Below, piece by piece: positions 12,296 through 21,657 of a DNA stretch of 64,000 nucleotides. This stretch comes from an uncultured Fodinibius sp. Lineage in GTDB: Bacteria; Bacteroidota; Rhodothermia; Balneolales; Balneolaceae. The notes under the pieces are model-generated. The model had not been told where the DNA came from. It did not search any database and saw only the letters and a program-made list of their open reading frames with translations. The DNA is taken from NCBI GenBank assembly GCA_913057775.1, contig CAJXOG010000004.1, positions 62,001-126,000 on the forward strand, written 5' to 3'. Numbering within the stretch: position 1 is the first letter of the stretch; each line of letters starts with the position of its first letter. The position numbers and the translations under genes are program-made.

Positions 12296-13165
12296 ATGCA
12301 ACGAATAACACGAATAGCGACGTTACTTTTAGTTTGTTCCATGACCATTTTTATGGCCTGTGAAGGTCCCTCTGGTTCAGAAGGTCCGCAGGGACCCGAA
12401 GGACCGCAGGGCCCCGTTGGACCGGCCGGTGAGGACGGCAGCATGATGTATTCCGGGCAGGGTGCCCCTGATGCTAGCATTGGCGAAAACGGTGATTATT
12501 ACCTGGATACAGATACCGGTGAATTGTATGGTCCCAAAGATGACAGCGGCTGGGGTAATCCTATCATAGTACTCCAAGGAGAAGATGGGGAAGACGGCAG
12601 TCAGATTCATGCTGGCAGTGGTGCCCCTGATGCTTCGTTAGGGGATCTGGGCGATTTTTACCTGGATCAAGCCAATTACGATATGTATGGCCCCAAAACA
12701 GAAAACGGTTGGGGAACTCCGATTAACCTGAAAGGGGCCGACGGTAATGCCAATGTAACGCGGTATATCTTTCCTGAGCATGATTTTAGCAGCAATTCTT
12801 CGGTAACACATAGTATTGGAGGGATAACAAATAATGAATTCCTAGAAAGTGCCTGGTTAGTTTATTTAGCTAATGACAGAGGTACAATTAATTCTACTTT
12901 TAGATACTATGCGGTTCCAACCGAAGGAGTGAATGATGGATCTTCTTATTCGGTCAGCTTTGGAAATGTTAACGACCGGCAAGCCTATTTCTACTTCACC
13001 TCGTCAGGATCACCTAAAACCACATATGAACGTATCGAGATTGTTCGTATTGAGGCTTCCAATACCGAAGATCAAACCAAGCAGAAATCAGGAGAAATTC
13101 TTCCCAGTGGACTAGATACCTCCGATTACAAAGCGGTAGCAGAATATTATGGCTTCTATCGATAA
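12296..13165 (+). CDS. Collagen-like lipoprotein with GAPD repeats
   Basis: A 289-residue lipoprotein. The signal peptide ends in a lipobox, FMAC (Cys22). A short collagen-type run of GPxG triplets follows (residues ~24-44), then two copies of a ~45-residue unit with GAPDASxGxxGDxYLD and MYGPK/LYGPK...GWGxP (about 54-98 and 102-146), then a GADGNANVTRY junction and a C-terminal beta-rich domain of about 140 residues that I do not recognise. The architecture suggests a surface-exposed fibre- or stalk-like protein. It has the shared promoter element upstream and a strong terminator downstream, so it is monocistronic. Its partner is unknown. Confidence 0.8.
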   Translation: MQRITRIATLLLVCSMTIFMACEGPSGSEGPQGPEGPQGPVGPAGEDGSMMYSGQGAPDASIGENGDYYLDTDTGELYGPKDDSGWGNPIIVLQGEDGEDGSQIHAGSGAPDASLGDLGDFYLDQANYDMYGPKTENGWGTPINLKGADGNANVTRYIFPEHDFSSNSSVTHSIGGITNNEFLESAWLVYLANDRGTINSTFRYYAVPTEGVNDGSSYSVSFGNVNDRQAYFYFTSSGSPKTTYERIEIVRIEASNTEDQTKQKSGEILPSGLDTSDYKAVAEYYGFYR

Positions 13166-13203: not shown

Positions 13204-13240
13204 AAAAATGGGCTCTGCTGAAAAGGCAGGGCCCATTTTT
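13204..13240. terminator. Rho-independent terminator after the collagen-like gene
   Basis: A near-perfect 16-base stem (13204-13219 and 13225-13240) with GGGCTCTGCT/GGCAGGGCCC core, a GAAAA loop, and flanking A- and T-runs. It separates the collagen-like gene from the next promoter element. Confidence 0.9.
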
Positions 13241-13284
13241 AGTTTCTTCATCTTTTCAAGGATTGACAAATTGTACAAAATTAA

Positions 13285-13326
13285 TTTGTCCTCATCCCGC
13301 CCGCCGTTACGCATGTTACTATGTAG
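13285..13326 (+). promoter_or_regulatory. Shared 42-base promoter-like element, copy 2
   Basis: Same length and layout as the other copies, beginning TTTGTCCTCATCCCG, with GTTACGCATG in the middle and CTATGTAG at the end, 31 bases before the ATG at 13358. It is the most divergent copy in the spacer but keeps the TTTGTC, GTTACGCAT and CTATGTA blocks. Confidence 0.7.
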
Positions 13327-13357
13327 AAGAAAAAGAATAGCAATAAACTATAGAATT

Positions 13358-14668
13358 ATGAGGCGCTTACTACAAATATCGACCCTGTTTATTGCACTGG
13401 GACTTCTAATATCGTGCGGAAGTGATAGTAGTACTACCGGTCCTGATTCGGAACCAGAGCCCACCACTGGATCCGTTGAAATTACGACCTCTACCAACGG
13501 TGATGACCAGGATGATGGTTATGAGGTTTTGGTTGACAGTACAACGCAGGGTATCGGGGCCAATGAAACTATAACAGTATCCAATCTGGATGAAGGGGAG
13601 TATGAAGTAGAGCTCTCTAATATTGCAGAAAACTGTGAGGTAGACCAGGAGAATCCACAAAATGTAACTGTTAAAGCTGGCAATACGGTGTCTACACAGT
13701 TTGAGATCGGGTGTCAGGCAAAAACAACTCCTCAGATTATTTTTGAAGGAGTGGGAGAAGAAGCTGAGAACATAGAAATTTATGCAACGGATTCTAATGG
13801 TTCGAATATTTTGAATTTGACCGAACATTCTGCAATGGATAAAAATCCCGTTTGGTCGCCTGATGGCAGCAAAATTGCTTTTGAATCTGACCGCTCAGGA
13901 CAGGTGACAGATATATATGTTATGGACGCAGACGGATCGAATCAGACACGGTTGACAAGCAGCGGTGCTGATGATTTTAGTCCGGCATGGTCACCGAATG
14001 GAGATAAGATCGCCTTTGTTTCGGAGCGGGATGGTACTGAAATTTATGTAATGAATGCAGATGGTACCAATCAGAACCGGTTAACAAATAATAATAGGCG
14101 AGATGATGAACCACTATGGTCGCCGGATGGCAGTCAAATCGCTTTTCGCACAAACCGCGATGGAAATGAAGAGATCTACGTGATGGATTCGAATGGTACC
14201 AATGAAGAGCGATTAACAAACTATGGTTTAGATGATTGCTGTGCGGATTGGTCGCCCAATGGAAATAAAATTGTTTACACTTCTTTTCGTGATGGCAGTC
14301 CCGGAGATTATGAAATCTATCGGATGGATACGGATGGATCTGATAAAATGAATCTCAGTGATCATACTGATCATGACCGTTCTCCAGTGTATTCTCCGGA
14401 TGGGACAAGAATTGCTTTTATTCCGGATAGAGATGGTCCCACGGAACTTTATGTAATGAACGAAGATGGGTCTAACCAGACGCGGTTGACAATGGACAGA
14501 ACAGTGTTGGGAGTTCCTGCGTGGTCGTCCAATGGCAATAAACTTATCTATGTGGGCCGCTATGAAAGTGACCGGTCCATTTTTGTTATAAATGAGGACG
14601 GCACAAATGAAACGGTGTTAACTGCTGAACTTGATTTGGCTGAGAAACCCGCTTGGCGTCCCAACTAA
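13358..14668 (+). CDS. Lipoprotein with PEGA-like domain and TolB-type beta-propeller (paralogue 1)
   Basis: A 436-residue lipoprotein. The frame is open further upstream, but that part runs through the terminator and promoter element, so the ATG at 13358 (MRRLLQ) is the start. It has a signal peptide with lipobox LISC (Cys22), an acidic/threonine linker, and a PEGA-like domain (~38-125: DDQDDGYEVLVD, GIGANETITVSNL, NPQNVTV). A TolB/PD40 propeller follows with about seven IY.MDADGSN..RLT / WSPDGSKIAF.SDRDG units. Such propellers usually bind proteins or peptidoglycan-associated partners. It is one of three paralogues in a row, each with its own promoter element. Confidence 0.85.
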   Translation: MRRLLQISTLFIALGLLISCGSDSSTTGPDSEPEPTTGSVEITTSTNGDDQDDGYEVLVDSTTQGIGANETITVSNLDEGEYEVELSNIAENCEVDQENPQNVTVKAGNTVSTQFEIGCQAKTTPQIIFEGVGEEAENIEIYATDSNGSNILNLTEHSAMDKNPVWSPDGSKIAFESDRSGQVTDIYVMDADGSNQTRLTSSGADDFSPAWSPNGDKIAFVSERDGTEIYVMNADGTNQNRLTNNNRRDDEPLWSPDGSQIAFRTNRDGNEEIYVMDSNGTNEERLTNYGLDDCCADWSPNGNKIVYTSFRDGSPGDYEIYRMDTDGSDKMNLSDHTDHDRSPVYSPDGTRIAFIPDRDGPTELYVMNEDGSNQTRLTMDRTVLGVPAWSSNGNKLIYVGRYESDRSIFVINEDGTNETVLTAELDLAEKPAWRPN

Positions 14669-14783
14669 TTTTCTTTTAGAGACAAGCTGGAATTTTTTAA
14701 AATGAGTGATATTAAAGTCTAGAAGAGTCTCATAATTTTTGCTCACAGCTGCATTATTCTGCTGTGGACTTGTGTAAATTGAA

Positions 14784-14825
14784 TTTGTCACCATTTCGTT
14801 AACTGTTACGCATGTTACTATGTAC
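14784..14825 (+). promoter_or_regulatory. Shared 42-base promoter-like element, copy 3
   Basis: Begins TTTGTCACCATTTCG, contains CTGTTACGCATGTTA and ends CTATGTAC, 31 bases before the ATG at 14857. From GTTACGCATG to CTATGTA it is identical to copy 2. Confidence 0.7.
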
Positions 14826-14856
14826 AAACCGGAATGAATAGTAAAAGCATAAAAAC

Positions 14857-16029
14857 ATGAGGCGCTTACTACAAATAACGACGCTGTTCATTGTAATAGG
14901 ACTACTAATATCTTGTGGAAGCGATAGTAATACCACCGGTCCTGATTCGGAACCAGAGCCCACCACCGGATCCGTTGAAATTACCACTTCTACCAGCGGC
15001 GATGATCAGGATGACGGTTATGAGATTTCGGTTGATGGTACAACGCAGGGTATCGGGGCCAATGAAACCGTAACAGTATCAGACCTGCAGGAAGGTAGCT
15101 ATGACGCTGAATTGACTGATATTTCCGAGAATTGTGTGGTGGATGGGGATAATCCGCGCAGTGTCGATATTACGGTGGGTGAGACGACCTCAACGTCCTT
15201 TAATATTACTTGCGAATCCGCAGCAAATGGGAAGATTGCCTTCATAAGCGATCGGGGTGAGAGCGAAGATATTTTTCTGATGGACGCCGATGGCTCATCG
15301 CCCACCAACCTAACCACGAACACGGATTATGATGGACTCGCAGCTATTTCCCACGACGGGAACCGAATTGCTTTTGTCAGTGATCGGAGTGGTTCTCATG
15401 GCTTATATGTGATGGATATTGACGGATCAAACGTGCAGCTAATTAAGTCCGGATTATCGAATGCTTACTTTGCGCCCAGCTGGTCGCCGGATGATTCCAA
15501 GCTGGCTTTTGTTGATGAATCAGGTGGGGATACAGAAATTTATACTATCGGCATCGACGGCAACAATGAACAACAGCTAACCAATAATAGTGCTGACGAT
15601 TATTACACGGATTGGTCTCCGGACGGTTCAAAAATTCTATACAACAGTGATACCGACGGTGATCAAGAGCTCTATACCGTAAATCCTGATGGATCTGACC
15701 GTCAGCGAGTAACAGAGAATTCCGATGCTGATTACGATGGGCGATGGTCGCCGGAGGGCTCGAAGATTGCCTTTGTCAGTGATCGGTCCGGGAACGATGA
15801 AATATATACCATAAATTCCGATGGGTCGGACGTCCAACAGGTAACAGACAATAGTGCTAGTGATATCGCCCCGACGTGGTCACCTGACGGAACCGAAATT
15901 GCCTTTAGAAGCAGGCGCGATGGTAATGGGGAAATATATAAGATGGCCGCTGATGGCAGCGGGTCGCCGGTCAACCTGACAGAGAACATCGCTTCCGATT
16001 CAAATCCTCACTGGAGAAAGGTAGAATAG
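14857..16029 (+). CDS. Lipoprotein with PEGA-like domain and TolB-type beta-propeller (paralogue 2)
   Basis: A 390-residue paralogue of the preceding gene. The first ~240 bases are very similar in DNA as well as protein: same MRRLLQI start, LISCGSDS lipobox, PDSEPEPTTGSVEITTST linker and PEGA-like domain. The propeller part is more divergent and has six units (for example EIYTINSDGSDVQQVT and WSPEGSKIAFVSDRSG). The protein ends directly after the last unit (NPHWRKVE). Expected location is the periplasm or the outer membrane. It has its own promoter element, so the three paralogues need not form one operon. Confidence 0.85.
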   Translation: MRRLLQITTLFIVIGLLISCGSDSNTTGPDSEPEPTTGSVEITTSTSGDDQDDGYEISVDGTTQGIGANETVTVSDLQEGSYDAELTDISENCVVDGDNPRSVDITVGETTSTSFNITCESAANGKIAFISDRGESEDIFLMDADGSSPTNLTTNTDYDGLAAISHDGNRIAFVSDRSGSHGLYVMDIDGSNVQLIKSGLSNAYFAPSWSPDDSKLAFVDESGGDTEIYTIGIDGNNEQQLTNNSADDYYTDWSPDGSKILYNSDTDGDQELYTVNPDGSDRQRVTENSDADYDGRWSPEGSKIAFVSDRSGNDEIYTINSDGSDVQQVTDNSASDIAPTWSPDGTEIAFRSRRDGNGEIYKMAADGSGSPVNLTENIASDSNPHWRKVE

Positions 16030-16128: not shown

Positions 16129-18279
16129 ATGCGACGATTTTTAATCACACTTTGTATTCCGATTATTGCGCTATCATTAATTTCCTGCGATGATGAATCT
16201 ACCGGTGAAGAGGAACCGCAGCCCTTAGAGTTTACAACGGAACCCTCTGATGGATTAAGTACCATGATTCAAGAAACACCCAGCGACTTTACCTGGGATT
16301 ACTATAACGATAATGTTATGGTGAATATGATCCCTGGTGCTCGATGGAGTGGTGAAATTGCTCTTTCAGGTTTTCAGGTAGAAAATGGGGAAGTGGTTAA
16401 CCGCACTACCACAGAGCCGGTTGAAACCACTGCTGATGAGCTTTCGGCCGGTCTCTCTACCGAAGAGATGTTTCCGGGTTCAAAATGGGTGCCGGGGAAT
16501 TCGTGGGTGCCGGGAAATTCATGGGTGCCGGGGAATTCGTGGGTTCCAGGAAATTCATGGACCCCTTCCGAAATTGAGAATGCTGCATTGTCAGAGTTTG
16601 ATCTCAGCCAGAACGAAACATTGGTAGTCGTTTATGCTCAACTTGCCGGGGAATCGCCCGGACGTGAACAGACTACCCAGCCGTTTGGGATTCTGATGAA
16701 AGAGGAATCAGAGTCGTTGGCATTTACGACAGAGCCCTCCGACGGGTTGAGCAACATGATCCAGGAAACGCCCAGCGACTTTACCTGGGATTATTATAAC
16801 GACAATGTTATGGTAAACATGGTACCTGGATCTCAATGGAGTGGTGACATTGCTCTTTCAGCCTTTCAGGTAGAAAATGGGGAAGTGGTTAACCGCACTA
16901 CTACAGATCCAGTTGAAACCACTGCTGATGAGCTTTCGGCTGGCCTTTCCACAGAAGAGATGTTTCCGGGATCCGAATGGTTTCCAGGCTCTGAATGGAT
17001 TCCGGGTTCCGACTGGTTCCCGGGTTCTGAATGGATTCCCGGTACTGACTGGACCCCCTCAGAAATTGAAAATGTTGCCCTGTCGGAGGTTGATCTGGGC
17101 CAGAATGAGTCGCTCGTGGTCGTTTATGCCCAACTTGCCGGGGAATCGCCCGAACGTGAGCAGACCACCCAACCGTTTGGCGTGCTGATGATGAAAGAGG
17201 AAACAACTGGAACGCTGGAAGTGACTACAACTACAAGTGGCGATAATCAAGATGACGGTTATGAAGTGTTAGTTGACGGAACAACTAACAGTATTGGAGC
17301 TAATGAAACGATAAATATCTCTGATCTGTCAGAGGGAGATTATGAGGTAGAACTAACCGATGTAGCTGATAACTGTGGAGTAGGCGGTGATAACCCACGA
17401 AATGTTACCATTACTGCTGACCAGACAACATCAACAACTTTTGAAGTTACTTGCCAGCAGCCCATGAAGAACGCACTGGCCTTTACCAGTTACCGCGAAG
17501 GCAATGGGGATATTTTTACGATTGGAGATGATGGCTCCGGCGTTAACCAGCTTACCACTAACGGTGAATTTGATGGCCAAGCTGCCGTTTCGCCAAATGG
17601 TACGAAAATTGCTTTCACCAGTGAGCGTGATGGCGACAAGGAGATCTTTGTGATGAACACCGATGGAAGCAACGTCAATCAGTTGACCAACAACAATGAA
17701 CTGGATGAGCATCCCGCTTGGTCTCCTGATGGCAGTGAAATTGTCTTTAGCAGTACCAGAGACGGTGTGGAGGAAATCTACACCATGAACGCTGATGGCA
17801 CGAGCATAAGCCGGGTTACGAATAATTCCCAGGCCGATCTCAATCCGAACTGGTCGCCCGGCGGCAACGAGATTGTCTTTGAAAGCCTGCGTGACAACAA
17901 CCGGGAGATTGTCGTCATAAACACCGATGGTTCCGGAGAAACGCGCCTGACCAACAATGCCATCGAGGATGCTAATCCGGTTTGGTCGCCTGACGGTTCA
18001 GAAATCGCTTTTCATGGGAAACGACAGGGAGAAGGTGATCAGGATATTTATACCATGGATGCTGACGGCAACAACGTTACCCAAGTTACAAGTAACAGCA
18101 ATTTCTATGATATATCACCAACCTGGTCGGCTGATGGCAGTCAGATAGCCTTCGAAAGCAACAGAGAGGGCTCTGGCGGAAGTGATATTTATAAGATTAA
18201 TGCAGACGGTACTTCGCCGGTCCGTATTACTACAAGCAGTGCCTTCGAAGAGCATCCATCATGGAGTCCGTTAGAATAA
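16129..18279 (+). CDS. Large lipoprotein: duplicated Trp-rich repeat module, PEGA-like domain and TolB-type propeller (paralogue 3)
   Basis: A 716-residue lipoprotein with lipobox LISC (Cys20). Two consecutive ~164-residue modules (about 33-196 and 197-358) each carry TTEPSDGLS.MIQETPSDFTW at the front, a stretch of six-residue W-[VFI]-P-G-[NS]-x repeats in the middle, and VVYAQLAGESP.REQTTQPFG at the end. Next come a PEGA-like domain (~361-445) and a six-unit TolB/PD40 propeller to the C terminus (EEHPSWSPLE). The PEGA and propeller parts match the two preceding genes; the duplicated module is unique to this one, and I know no family for it. It is followed by a terminator. Confidence 0.85.
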   Translation: MRRFLITLCIPIIALSLISCDDESTGEEEPQPLEFTTEPSDGLSTMIQETPSDFTWDYYNDNVMVNMIPGARWSGEIALSGFQVENGEVVNRTTTEPVETTADELSAGLSTEEMFPGSKWVPGNSWVPGNSWVPGNSWVPGNSWTPSEIENAALSEFDLSQNETLVVVYAQLAGESPGREQTTQPFGILMKEESESLAFTTEPSDGLSNMIQETPSDFTWDYYNDNVMVNMVPGSQWSGDIALSAFQVENGEVVNRTTTDPVETTADELSAGLSTEEMFPGSEWFPGSEWIPGSDWFPGSEWIPGTDWTPSEIENVALSEVDLGQNESLVVVYAQLAGESPEREQTTQPFGVLMMKEETTGTLEVTTTTSGDNQDDGYEVLVDGTTNSIGANETINISDLSEGDYEVELTDVADNCGVGGDNPRNVTITADQTTSTTFEVTCQQPMKNALAFTSYREGNGDIFTIGDDGSGVNQLTTNGEFDGQAAVSPNGTKIAFTSERDGDKEIFVMNTDGSNVNQLTNNNELDEHPAWSPDGSEIVFSSTRDGVEEIYTMNADGTSISRVTNNSQADLNPNWSPGGNEIVFESLRDNNREIVVINTDGSGETRLTNNAIEDANPVWSPDGSEIAFHGKRQGEGDQDIYTMDADGNNVTQVTSNSNFYDISPTWSADGSQIAFESNREGSGGSDIYKINADGTSPVRITTSSAFEEHPSWSPLE
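16486..16557 (+). repeat. Four 18-base repeats coding WVPGNS
   Basis: Four adjacent 18-base units (TGGGTGCCGGGGAATTCG-type) encode WVPGNS four times, with only third-position changes between units. Such an array can expand or shrink by slippage. Confidence 0.9.
16978..17049 (+). repeat. Four 18-base repeats coding W[FI]PG[ST][ED]
   Basis: The counterpart array in the second module: WFPGSE, WIPGSD, WFPGSE, WIPGTD. The period is the same as in the first array but the consensus is acidic and alternates F and I, so each array seems to have homogenised independently. Confidence 0.9.
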
Positions 18280-18511: not shown

Positions 18512-21076
18512 CTATTTTAAAAGCCTCTTATAATCTGCCACTATTTTTTTATCGACTCCCGCCTGCTGGTAAATTCGTATGATACGATTGATATCTGCGG
18601 AAGTGCTTTTACTGAGATTTGAGCTATGCTTTTCATAAAATTGGTAGTGGTGCTTTTTAAGCGAATCGGTTTCTTTGATTGGTGTATTATCTTGCAGCAT
18701 AAGGCTGGCGGTAAGTAGGCCTTCGGCGTACGCTGTTCGAAGATCATCAGTCCCCCGAATATTTCTATTTATTTGAACGCTTTCTCTAATATATGGTTCA
18801 GCTTTTTCAAATTTCTGTTGTAGCATCAAAAAAACGCTCATAATATTTATCGTCGATACAGTTTGGGTGTGATTCGTACCAAATCGCTGACGCGCTGCAT
18901 TAATATTCTCTTCAAGAAGTTTTGTTGCCTCCTCATAGTTTTTCTGAAAATATAGATTGGTTGCCAGGTTTCTGCGCGCCATTATTGTTTCAGGATGCCC
19001 ACTTCCATTGATTGCTTTTATCAATCGGATTGATGTTCTATAGCTTTCGGTTGCTTTTTTATGGTTTTCCTGCACTCTATACAGATACCCTAAGTTCTGA
19101 TAGTATCCGGCTAACATATTCAAGCGGTTTGTACTGTCCTGTTTAGCTCTCGATATAGCCTTTACATAAAGTGATTCAGCCTTGGCATATTCTTCTTTTT
19201 TTCGAAGGACGTAACCCAATTCTACCATTGTATTTAAAACACTGGGATGAGTTTTAGACAACAGATTTTGCTGAATACTGAGTGCTTTACGCGCGTATAT
19301 TTCAGCTGAATCAATTTTGCCAACATCGCGCATTGCTGAGGCCATATTAGCAAGCACCATTGCAGTATTTTGATCTTCCATGCCGTGAATGGAAAGATTA
19401 ATCTGATAGGCCTTTCGAAAGAAGGGTAAAGCCTTTTTAAAATTATATTGTTTGACGTACCAATGTCCTAGCCGGTTAAGAGCGGTTGCATGTTCAGAAC
19501 TCTGTATTCCGTGTAGAGTTTTACTCGTCTGCACGGCCTTTTGCAACAATGGAAGGGCACTGTCATAATCACCGATATTCGTATGAGCTTGTCCGATAAC
19601 TGATAGCATATTCGCATAACCGGGTTCTCCTTTGAGTCTTTTGGCCTCTTTAGCACCCTGTCGTAATACATCACGGACTTGTAAAGTGTCTTTGGCTGCT
19701 TCCAAATCAAATAATCCAAGGATAAATTGGGATACCTGCTGGGCTTTCTCCGCTTGAATTTGCGCCTGATTACGTTCTTTGGAGATCTGCAAGGTATAGA
19801 AAGTGGCAAAACCAATAATCAGGAGAAAAAATCCGGCGGCAACACTAATCCCATATTTATGTCTTTTGACAAATTTGCCTATTGTATAACGAACAGTATC
19901 CTTCCGCGCCACCAGGGGCAGATTCTTCTTTAGTCGTTCTAAGTCTACCAGTAGTTTTTCGGCTGATGGGTATCGTGCTTCAGGTTCTTTGCGCAAAGCT
20001 TTCATCACGATGGCGTCCAGATCGCCCTGCAGTTTTTGAGCCAGGTCTTCAGGAGATAAATTTCGTGAGTTGGCTATTTTTTCTTTTCGATTAACAAGCA
20101 AGCTTTGAAAGCGATCTGAGGGTTTATCCGGAGATTTTTGTCGGATAAGTTGTTCAATGTCGGTAAAACTTTTTTCATCCATATCAAAGGGATGAACGCC
20201 GGCCAACAATTCGTATAAAAGAATACCCAGTGTATAAATATCTGTGTGGGTTGTAATAGATTCTTTTTTGATTTGCTCGGGAGCCGCGTAGCCGAGCGTT
20301 AGAATACGTGCACCGGTTTGCGTTTCAAAGAGTTGGGTATTAGGATCTTCGGGCTCCAAAAGTTTTGCAATGCCGAAATCAAGAATTTTTACTTGTCCAT
20401 TTGGGGTCACCAGAATATTGGAGGGTTTCAAATCGCGATGGATAATCGCATTGTTATGGGCGTGATGTACCGCTTCACAAATAGATTTAAAGAGCTCCAG
20501 ACGCTTATCTATAGATAACCTATTATCATCACAATAATTGTAAAGCGGCGTGCCCTCCACATATTCCATCACTAGGTATGGCAGTCCCTCGTCCGTCATG
20601 CCGCCGTCTAGCAGTCGGGCAATATTTGGATGATTGAGCTTGGCCAGAATGTTCCGCTCACGCTTAAATCGGGCGATATTTGACGGCGTATCCATGCCGC
20701 GCCGCATGAGCTTTAAGGCTACTTTCTGCTCGTAAGCCTGATCCGCGCGTTCGGCCAGAAAAACCGATCCCATGCCACCGTGACCAATAAGCTCGATAAG
20801 TTTATAATTGTCGATGGTAGTTCCGATGAGGGAAGAAGTGTTCTCTCCAATTTCGTTTCGTGATATCTCATGAGCAAGCTGGGTATAATCTCCGAGATCC
20901 TCTAAAAAATTTTCTGTATCGGATTGCTCGATTGAGGCAACTAGTTCGGTGACCTCTCGCTTGAGTTGTTTATTGTCCTTACATTTCTCTTGAATATAGC
21001 TTTCTCGTTCTTTTTCGCTAAGATCAAGGGCTGTATCTACGATGTTATTTATTTTCTTCCACCGTTGCTGATCCAT
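18512..21076 (-). CDS. Transmembrane Ser/Thr protein kinase with C-terminal TPR domain
   Basis: An 854-residue kinase. Residues 1-60 form the small helical MDQQRWK..NFLEDL module common before the kinase domain in ECF-linked kinases. The kinase domain spans ~90-385 with the GHGGMGSV glycine loop, K122 in VALKL, HRDLKPSN (213-220), DFG (233-235) and APEQ (265-268), so it should be active. A single membrane segment lies at about 409-430. The rest consists of about eight TPR units (for example AEIYARKALSIQQNLL). With the kinase inside, the TPR tail should lie in the periplasm. It is 17 bases downstream of the ECF sigma gene and surely cotranscribed with it. Kinase control of the sigma factor is known for some ECF-kinase pairs and is inferred here. 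Confidence 0.9.
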   Translation of the reverse strand: MDQQRWKKINNIVDTALDLSEKERESYIQEKCKDNKQLKREVTELVASIEQSDTENFLEDLGDYTQLAHEISRNEIGENTSSLIGTTIDNYKLIELIGHGGMGSVFLAERADQAYEQKVALKLMRRGMDTPSNIARFKRERNILAKLNHPNIARLLDGGMTDEGLPYLVMEYVEGTPLYNYCDDNRLSIDKRLELFKSICEAVHHAHNNAIIHRDLKPSNILVTPNGQVKILDFGIAKLLEPEDPNTQLFETQTGARILTLGYAAPEQIKKESITTHTDIYTLGILLYELLAGVHPFDMDEKSFTDIEQLIRQKSPDKPSDRFQSLLVNRKEKIANSRNLSPEDLAQKLQGDLDAIVMKALRKEPEARYPSAEKLLVDLERLKKNLPLVARKDTVRYTIGKFVKRHKYGISVAAGFFLLIIGFATFYTLQISKERNQAQIQAEKAQQVSQFILGLFDLEAAKDTLQVRDVLRQGAKEAKRLKGEPGYANMLSVIGQAHTNIGDYDSALPLLQKAVQTSKTLHGIQSSEHATALNRLGHWYVKQYNFKKALPFFRKAYQINLSIHGMEDQNTAMVLANMASAMRDVGKIDSAEIYARKALSIQQNLLSKTHPSVLNTMVELGYVLRKKEEYAKAESLYVKAISRAKQDSTNRLNMLAGYYQNLGYLYRVQENHKKATESYRTSIRLIKAINGSGHPETIMARRNLATNLYFQKNYEEATKLLEENINAARQRFGTNHTQTVSTINIMSVFLMLQQKFEKAEPYIRESVQINRNIRGTDDLRTAYAEGLLTASLMLQDNTPIKETDSLKKHHYQFYEKHSSNLSKSTSADINRIIRIYQQAGVDKKIVADYKRLLK

Positions 21077-21093
21077 ACGAAAAAACTTCCGAT

Positions 21094-21657
21094 TTATTCC
21101 TTTTTTAATTCCTTATAGAGCCATCCCCGGGCTTTGGCCCAGTCGCGCTTGACGGTACGTTCCGATACATCCAGCGCCTTGGCAGTCTGATAAATCGTCA
21201 TTTGTCCGAAATAACGAAGTGTTACCACTTCGGCCATGCGTTCATCCAGTTCGGCAAGTTCATCTAATTTTTCATCCAGATTGATAATTTCTTCAGACTC
21301 TTGACGTGCTTTTAATAATTTATCGATATAAGTAACCTCTTTTTGGTCGCCGCCACGTTTCTCGGCTTTCTTTTTTCGAGCGTGATCCACCAGAATTTGA
21401 CGCATGCAACGAGCCGCTATTGCTAAAAAGTGATTTTTATCATTGGCCTCAATACAGGTTTGGTCAACCATTTTTAGGTAAACTTCATGTACTAGCTCGG
21501 TTTCCGAAACCGTAATATCGTTGCGTTCTCCTTTGAGCTTGGAACATGCAAGGCCTTTCAACTCTTTATAAACAAGGGGGAAAAATTCTTCGTAAGCTTC
21601 TTCGGATCCCTTTTTTACCTCCATTAAGAGCCGGGTAACCTCTGATTTATTTCTCAT
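21094..21657 (-). CDS. ECF-type RNA polymerase sigma factor (kinase-linked type)
   Basis: A 187-residue sigma-70 family protein with only regions 2 and 4. Region 2 includes SETELVHEVYLKMVDQ and FLAIAARCMRQILVDHARKK; region 4 includes LDERMAEVVTLRYFGQMTIYQTAKALDVSERTVKRDW, with the helix-turn-helix in the last part. The VDHARKK signature places it with ECF factors often found beside Ser/Thr kinases (TIGR02999-like). No anti-sigma factor gene is next to it, which fits control by the kinase. Likely targets are the four lipoprotein genes carrying the shared element; no copy of that element was seen upstream of this gene itself. Confidence 0.9.
   Translation of the reverse strand: MRNKSEVTRLLMEVKKGSEEAYEEFFPLVYKELKGLACSKLKGERNDITVSETELVHEVYLKMVDQTCIEANDKNHFLAIAARCMRQILVDHARKKKAEKRGGDQKEVTYIDKLLKARQESEEIINLDEKLDELAELDERMAEVVTLRYFGQMTIYQTAKALDVSERTVKRDWAKARGWLYKELKKE

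Follow-up and report, generated by a model that had tools for sequence, protein, structure and literature searches.

A gene encoding two copies of an array-bearing module

The window, a stretch of 64,000 nucleotides from contig 4 of the 3.1-Mb genome of a salt-loving Fodinibius bacterium, contains a gene for a predicted lipoprotein in which a lipobox is followed by two copies of a 164-residue module, a linker domain of about 80 residues and a TolB-like propeller (Table 1). The module copies are exactly adjacent and in frame, span 492 bp each, and share 132 of 164 residues and 78% nucleotide identity. Both the 492-bp duplication (score 1272) and the 18/36-bp array inside each copy were detected by Tandem Repeats Finder. 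The duplicated module and its W-x-P-G-x-x arrays had been proposed in an initial annotation, and translation confirmed WVPGNS repeats in array 1 and alternating WFPGSE and WIPGSD/T units in array 2. Of the extent assigned there, 16225-17202, the start holds but the second copy extends to about 17208; the W units were described correctly, but the leading M-F-P-G unit of each array had been missed. Counting this unit, each array has five P-G hexads. WTPSEIE directly follows both arrays, and shuffling the protein 20,000 times never gave two adjacent W-x-P-G-x-x units.

Table 1. Features of the module gene and its surroundings (positions in the window).
Feature	Position	Strand	Basis
Two PD40 lipoprotein genes with the same linker domain, without module	13208..16029 (13208-14668, 14857-16029)	+	
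Predicted lipoprotein gene, 716 aa	16129..18279	+	ORF list; PD40 E 6.4e-47; AlphaFold2; TolB match
Signal peptide with lipobox LISC, Cys20, then DDES	16129..16188	+	Translation, by eye
Module copy 1, 164 aa	16225..16716	+	Tandem Repeats Finder and copy-versus-copy comparison
Hexad array 1: MFPGSK and 4 x WVPGNS; 18-bp units, 36-bp superperiod (weakly supported)	16468..16557	+	
Module copy 2, 164 aa	16717..17208	+	Tandem Repeats Finder and copy-versus-copy comparison
Hexad array 2: MFPGSE WFPGSE WIPGSD WFPGSE WIPGTD	16960..17049	+	
Linker domain (VTTTTSGDNQDDGYEVLVDG...TFEVTC), no family assigned	17206..17458	+	Translations of three lipoproteins
Six-bladed TolB-like (PD40) propeller	17476..18276	+	PD40 match, AlphaFold2, Foldseek
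Convergent Ser/Thr kinase-TPR gene and TIGR02999 ECF sigma factor	18512..21657	-	

The C-terminal part of the protein is a PD40/TolB-like propeller. It carries PD40 (PF07676) repeats, AlphaFold2 placed a propeller at residues ~450-716 of the full protein (10-residue block means mostly 80-96, with three blocks at 73-75), and the propeller model matched TolB structures in Foldseek with an E value of 2.9e-23. Assignment to the TolB equivalog TIGR02800 was rejected (208.9 bits against a cut-off of 343.15). Comparison of three translations showed that the linker domain is common to the two lipoproteins encoded upstream.

As the initial annotation had supposed, the module matched no named family: Pfam and NCBIfam gave nothing above the curated cut-offs (best PF22308, E 0.3, 11.1 versus 27 bits), and no PDB sequence family covers it. 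Its predicted structure, from a four-row alignment, has a mean pLDDT of 59 with the arrays mostly as coil; the elements, predicted with low confidence, are a beta-hairpin, a helix, the array, a helix and two strands, and the same ones flank the array in each copy. No usable match came out of fold searches with this low-confidence model, the top values being E 0.1 in Foldseek and Z 4.0 in VIA-align.

The ECF sigma factor and kinase genes adjoin the module gene in the window, in Fodinibius halophilus, and in the genomes G004 and G067, but not in G011; families were searched for the window genes, and neighbours in the other genomes were judged from sequence starts. Also near the module gene, at 12296-13165 (+), is a predicted lipoprotein gene containing a brief G-x-y run reminiscent of collagen; genes like it are found close to the module gene in F. 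halophilus (L048, three copies) and in G004 (L081).

Divergence of the repeat units

Mean identity between units is 0.87 and 0.77 within the two copies and 0.55 between them, as the initial annotation had noted in kind, and none of the 70 ways of splitting the units 4+4 does better than the observed grouping (2/70 with its mirror). This supports homogenisation and suggests that units spread inside a copy after the module had been duplicated. Slippage had been invoked together with homogenisation; slippage alone does not account for the arrays, since the differences between units are mostly synonymous. Indeed, unit divergence is mainly synonymous in all 11 arrays measured, with a pN/pS of 0.00 in copy 1, 0.21 in copy 2, 0.36 in a paralogue encoded in the same genome, and 0.04-0.22 in eight other arrays. 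With values of 0-0.36 throughout, neutral slippage was rejected. This bias indicates that the peptide repeat is kept by selection and not by slippage alone, and the hexad arrays thus seem to be preserved by selection. Purifying selection acts on the module core (copy versus copy, dN 0.050, dS 0.872, dN/dS ~0.06). That the arrays are functionless, low-complexity products of slippage would agree with short repeats whose number differs between proteins; it is highly improbable, and was already disfavoured, given a pN/pS well below 1 in 11/11 arrays, the low dN/dS of the core, and a homologue in G067 in which the spacing of W survives the loss of most P-G: its seven W residues are all exactly six apart, an arrangement found in 0/200,000 shuffles. 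Units that diverge silently but not in peptide sequence make it possible to tell slippage and selection apart cleanly in a tandemly repeated protein.

The arrays had also been likened to those of phase- or length-variable surface proteins. Phase variation was not borne out: the units are multiples of three nucleotides, so that their gain or loss keeps the reading frame and provides no on/off switch. Length variation, in which slippage would alter the number of units and hence an exposed epitope or the binding reach of the protein, appears unlikely. It would be in line with homogenisation within copies and with a unit number and sequence that vary between species and paralogues; against it, the 18-bp units keep frame, all three arrays of this genome (two module copies and the paralogue) have five P-G hexads, and pS between their units is 0.54-0.80, a synonymous divergence too large for fresh copies.

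A 36-bp superperiod is weakly supported, with a combined permutation p of 0.003 for 11 arrays and 0.041 for the nine bacterial ones; by itself, only an array from Natrinema reached significance (p 0.007). Such a 12-residue superperiod, weak as it is, would suit a purely structural spacer, in which the hexads pack internally and stiffen the module without binding, for example as a short solenoid or meander in which each turn takes two hexads. So would the hydrophobic character of positions 1 and 2, the polar positions 5-6, and the interchange of W with F and L. We nevertheless find a spacer rather doubtful, as the array was modelled as coil, with low confidence, and its units are few for a solenoid.

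Relatives in Rhodothermia and haloarchaea

A profile of the W module (A2) matched 5 of the 244 genomes of the class: the window genome, F. halophilus 2W32 (G002), G004, an uncultured Aliifodinibius bin (G011) and G067, of which G002 and G011 belong to the genus of the window. In addition to the two module copies, the window genome encodes a 191-residue single-module paralogue 125 kb away (G000:C4:204686-205171). The module occurs in single-module proteins in G002, G004 and G011, and as one copy on the same linker-propeller architecture in G067, a member of another genus. In the G004 and G011 homologues the W periodicity is largely gone, suggesting that some relatives can do without the array. 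Among viral contigs, the A2 profile had no match and the W pattern returned 94 stretches, with no convincing relative among the 80 inspected; an array query matched 5 of 50,697 phage records, with a best E value of 0.1.

Similar arrays occur in a second group, the FPGD-array secreted proteins of Rhodothermia, whose profile (A1) matched 19 of the 244 genomes, the window genome among them by its arrays. The members are mostly ORFs of 205-260 residues with, by eye, a signal-peptide-like start, and their units include FFPGDH, IPGDAF, FPDETFFPSDTF and FFPDAN. Both A1 and a further profile, A4, matched the two window arrays and the paralogue, and the h-h-P-G-polar-x pattern of this FPGD family (A4) is present in the window arrays. 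A4 matched 6 of 394 sampled genomes of the phylum, all six within the class. A gene named mraZ by its sequence start lies beside the FPGD gene in five of the neighbourhoods inspected (G041, G042, G044, G067 and G068); the G067 gene near mraZ (L023/L061/L078, G067:C9:714213-714690) is interrupted by a stop codon or a break in the frame. Class-wide, a pattern search matched 18 of 244 genomes, and we judged from translations that eight matches represent real arrays (G000, G041, G042, G044, G051, G067, G176 and G206); ten were set aside as other frames or compositions, by translation (L025, L026, L027, L031, L034) or by DNA alone (L024, L028, L032, L033, L035). Outside the class, represented by 208 of 277 sampled genomes, the pattern matched a single genome, G410, whose matched DNA is not FPGD-like. 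The 10 stretches that the FPGD pattern gave in viral contigs were all unrelated FGPGDG-rich frames.

With the arrays masked, the cores of W and FPGD proteins mostly scored within shuffles (1/7 W rows and 1/20 F rows exceeded all 100 shuffles), and hhalign of the cores without arrays gave 16.5 against up to 20.0 for shuffles. The two groups are therefore linked through the array and a similar order of predicted elements.

Three further ORFs with arrays were noted. One in G072 (L093:7134-8993) follows an ECF sigma gene and has an anti-sigma-like start, dozens of ELANNPAF-type repeats and an inserted FPSDTF array; one in G183 (L092:6991-8802), with a YadA head and Peptidase_S74, passes through a hydrophobic segment before entering an FPGDT-array domain. 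The third, of 343 residues in G051 (L022:778-1806), combines scattered single PG-S-x-W motifs with one FPGD array, a layout like that of the haloarchaeal proteins below.

When module 2 was searched by tblastn against 72,556 plasmids, two records matched, both haloarchaeal and both in the array only. P0001, a Natronosalvus lipoprotein (DUF6517/PF20127), has nine WIPGS[ST] hexads, and P0002, a Natrinema lipoprotein, has nine [FLW]FPGD[ATS] hexads, L replacing W in half of them. P0001 and P0002 themselves matched 30 and 7 records in total, among them stretches in plasmids from Enterococcus, Staphylococcus, Streptomyces and a few others. A match in Haliscomenobacter was antisense to an annotated gene. 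Across 96 hexads from 20 arrays, listed by hand, P is found in 91, G in 82, W/F/L/Y at position 1 in 87 and F/I/V at position 2 in 91, giving the consensus hydrophobic-hydrophobic-P-G-polar-x.

A possible role in the envelope

On the likeliest reading, the module would form a small domain outside the cytoplasm that presents a loop of repeated h-h-P-G-polar-x hexads. Each hexad would supply one Pro-Gly turn and position an aromatic W or F at a constant spacing of six, so that a lipid-anchored protein with a propeller would display a regular aromatic ladder, short and rich in turns. Units would multiply by duplication of 18 or 36 bp within one gene, and purifying selection would afterwards retain W/F, P and G. 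The ladder may bind a partner, either within the envelope or outside it, which could be a polymer, a different envelope protein or a second ladder. The presence of L instead of W in half of the hexads from Natrinema argues against sugar stacking. We give an even chance to the array acting in binding or assembly, as an aromatic ladder rich in turns, in an envelope lipoprotein. The synonymous bias, hexad conservation, the W spacing in G067, the low core dN, the same predicted flanking elements, the superperiod and the recurrence of arrays in unrelated bacterial and archaeal lipoproteins count for a ladder; the poor module model, the loss of periodicity in G004 and G011, and a superperiod significant alone only in Natrinema count against it. 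A surface location is plausible from the lipobox followed by CDDE. By eye, C-DDES resembles the surface export signals of Bacteroidota lipoproteins, K-(D/E)2, SDDDD and SDDFE, although the accessible part of that source defines no such signal for this class (PMC5080379).

More broadly, we tentatively suggest that the [WF]-h-P-G-polar-x hexad could be an undescribed structural repeat of envelope lipoproteins that occurs in unrelated scaffolds of Rhodothermia and haloarchaea. Arrays of it would have been amplified time and again from lone P-G-x-x-W/F turn motifs and maintained by selection, perhaps with each structural rung made of two hexads. No description of the hexad repeat was found in the available portions of the literature. 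If this is correct, a short, selected, aromatic Pro-Gly repeat would join the catalogue of protein repeats; it occurs in bacterial and archaeal salt-lovers, including in small secreted proteins open to study.

The module protein resembles TolB and other PD40 proteins (PF07676, TIGR02800) in its C-terminal propeller and differs from TolB in being a predicted lipoprotein that carries modules and misses the TIGR02800 cut-off. The FPGD-array proteins share the hexad pattern and an array that precedes a predicted helix and two strands, but their aromatic is mostly F, not W, and their cores outside the array scored mostly within shuffles. The haloarchaeal proteins have hexads like the window arrays, plus scattered single P-G-x-x-W/F motifs, and tblastn found no similarity to the module outside the array. 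Repeats built on Pro-Gly turns are known from elastin (VPGVG) and glutenin. The hexad is like these in being a short unit with one P-G turn; unlike them, it has a strictly spaced aromatic and occurs in only 3-11 units, inside a domain.
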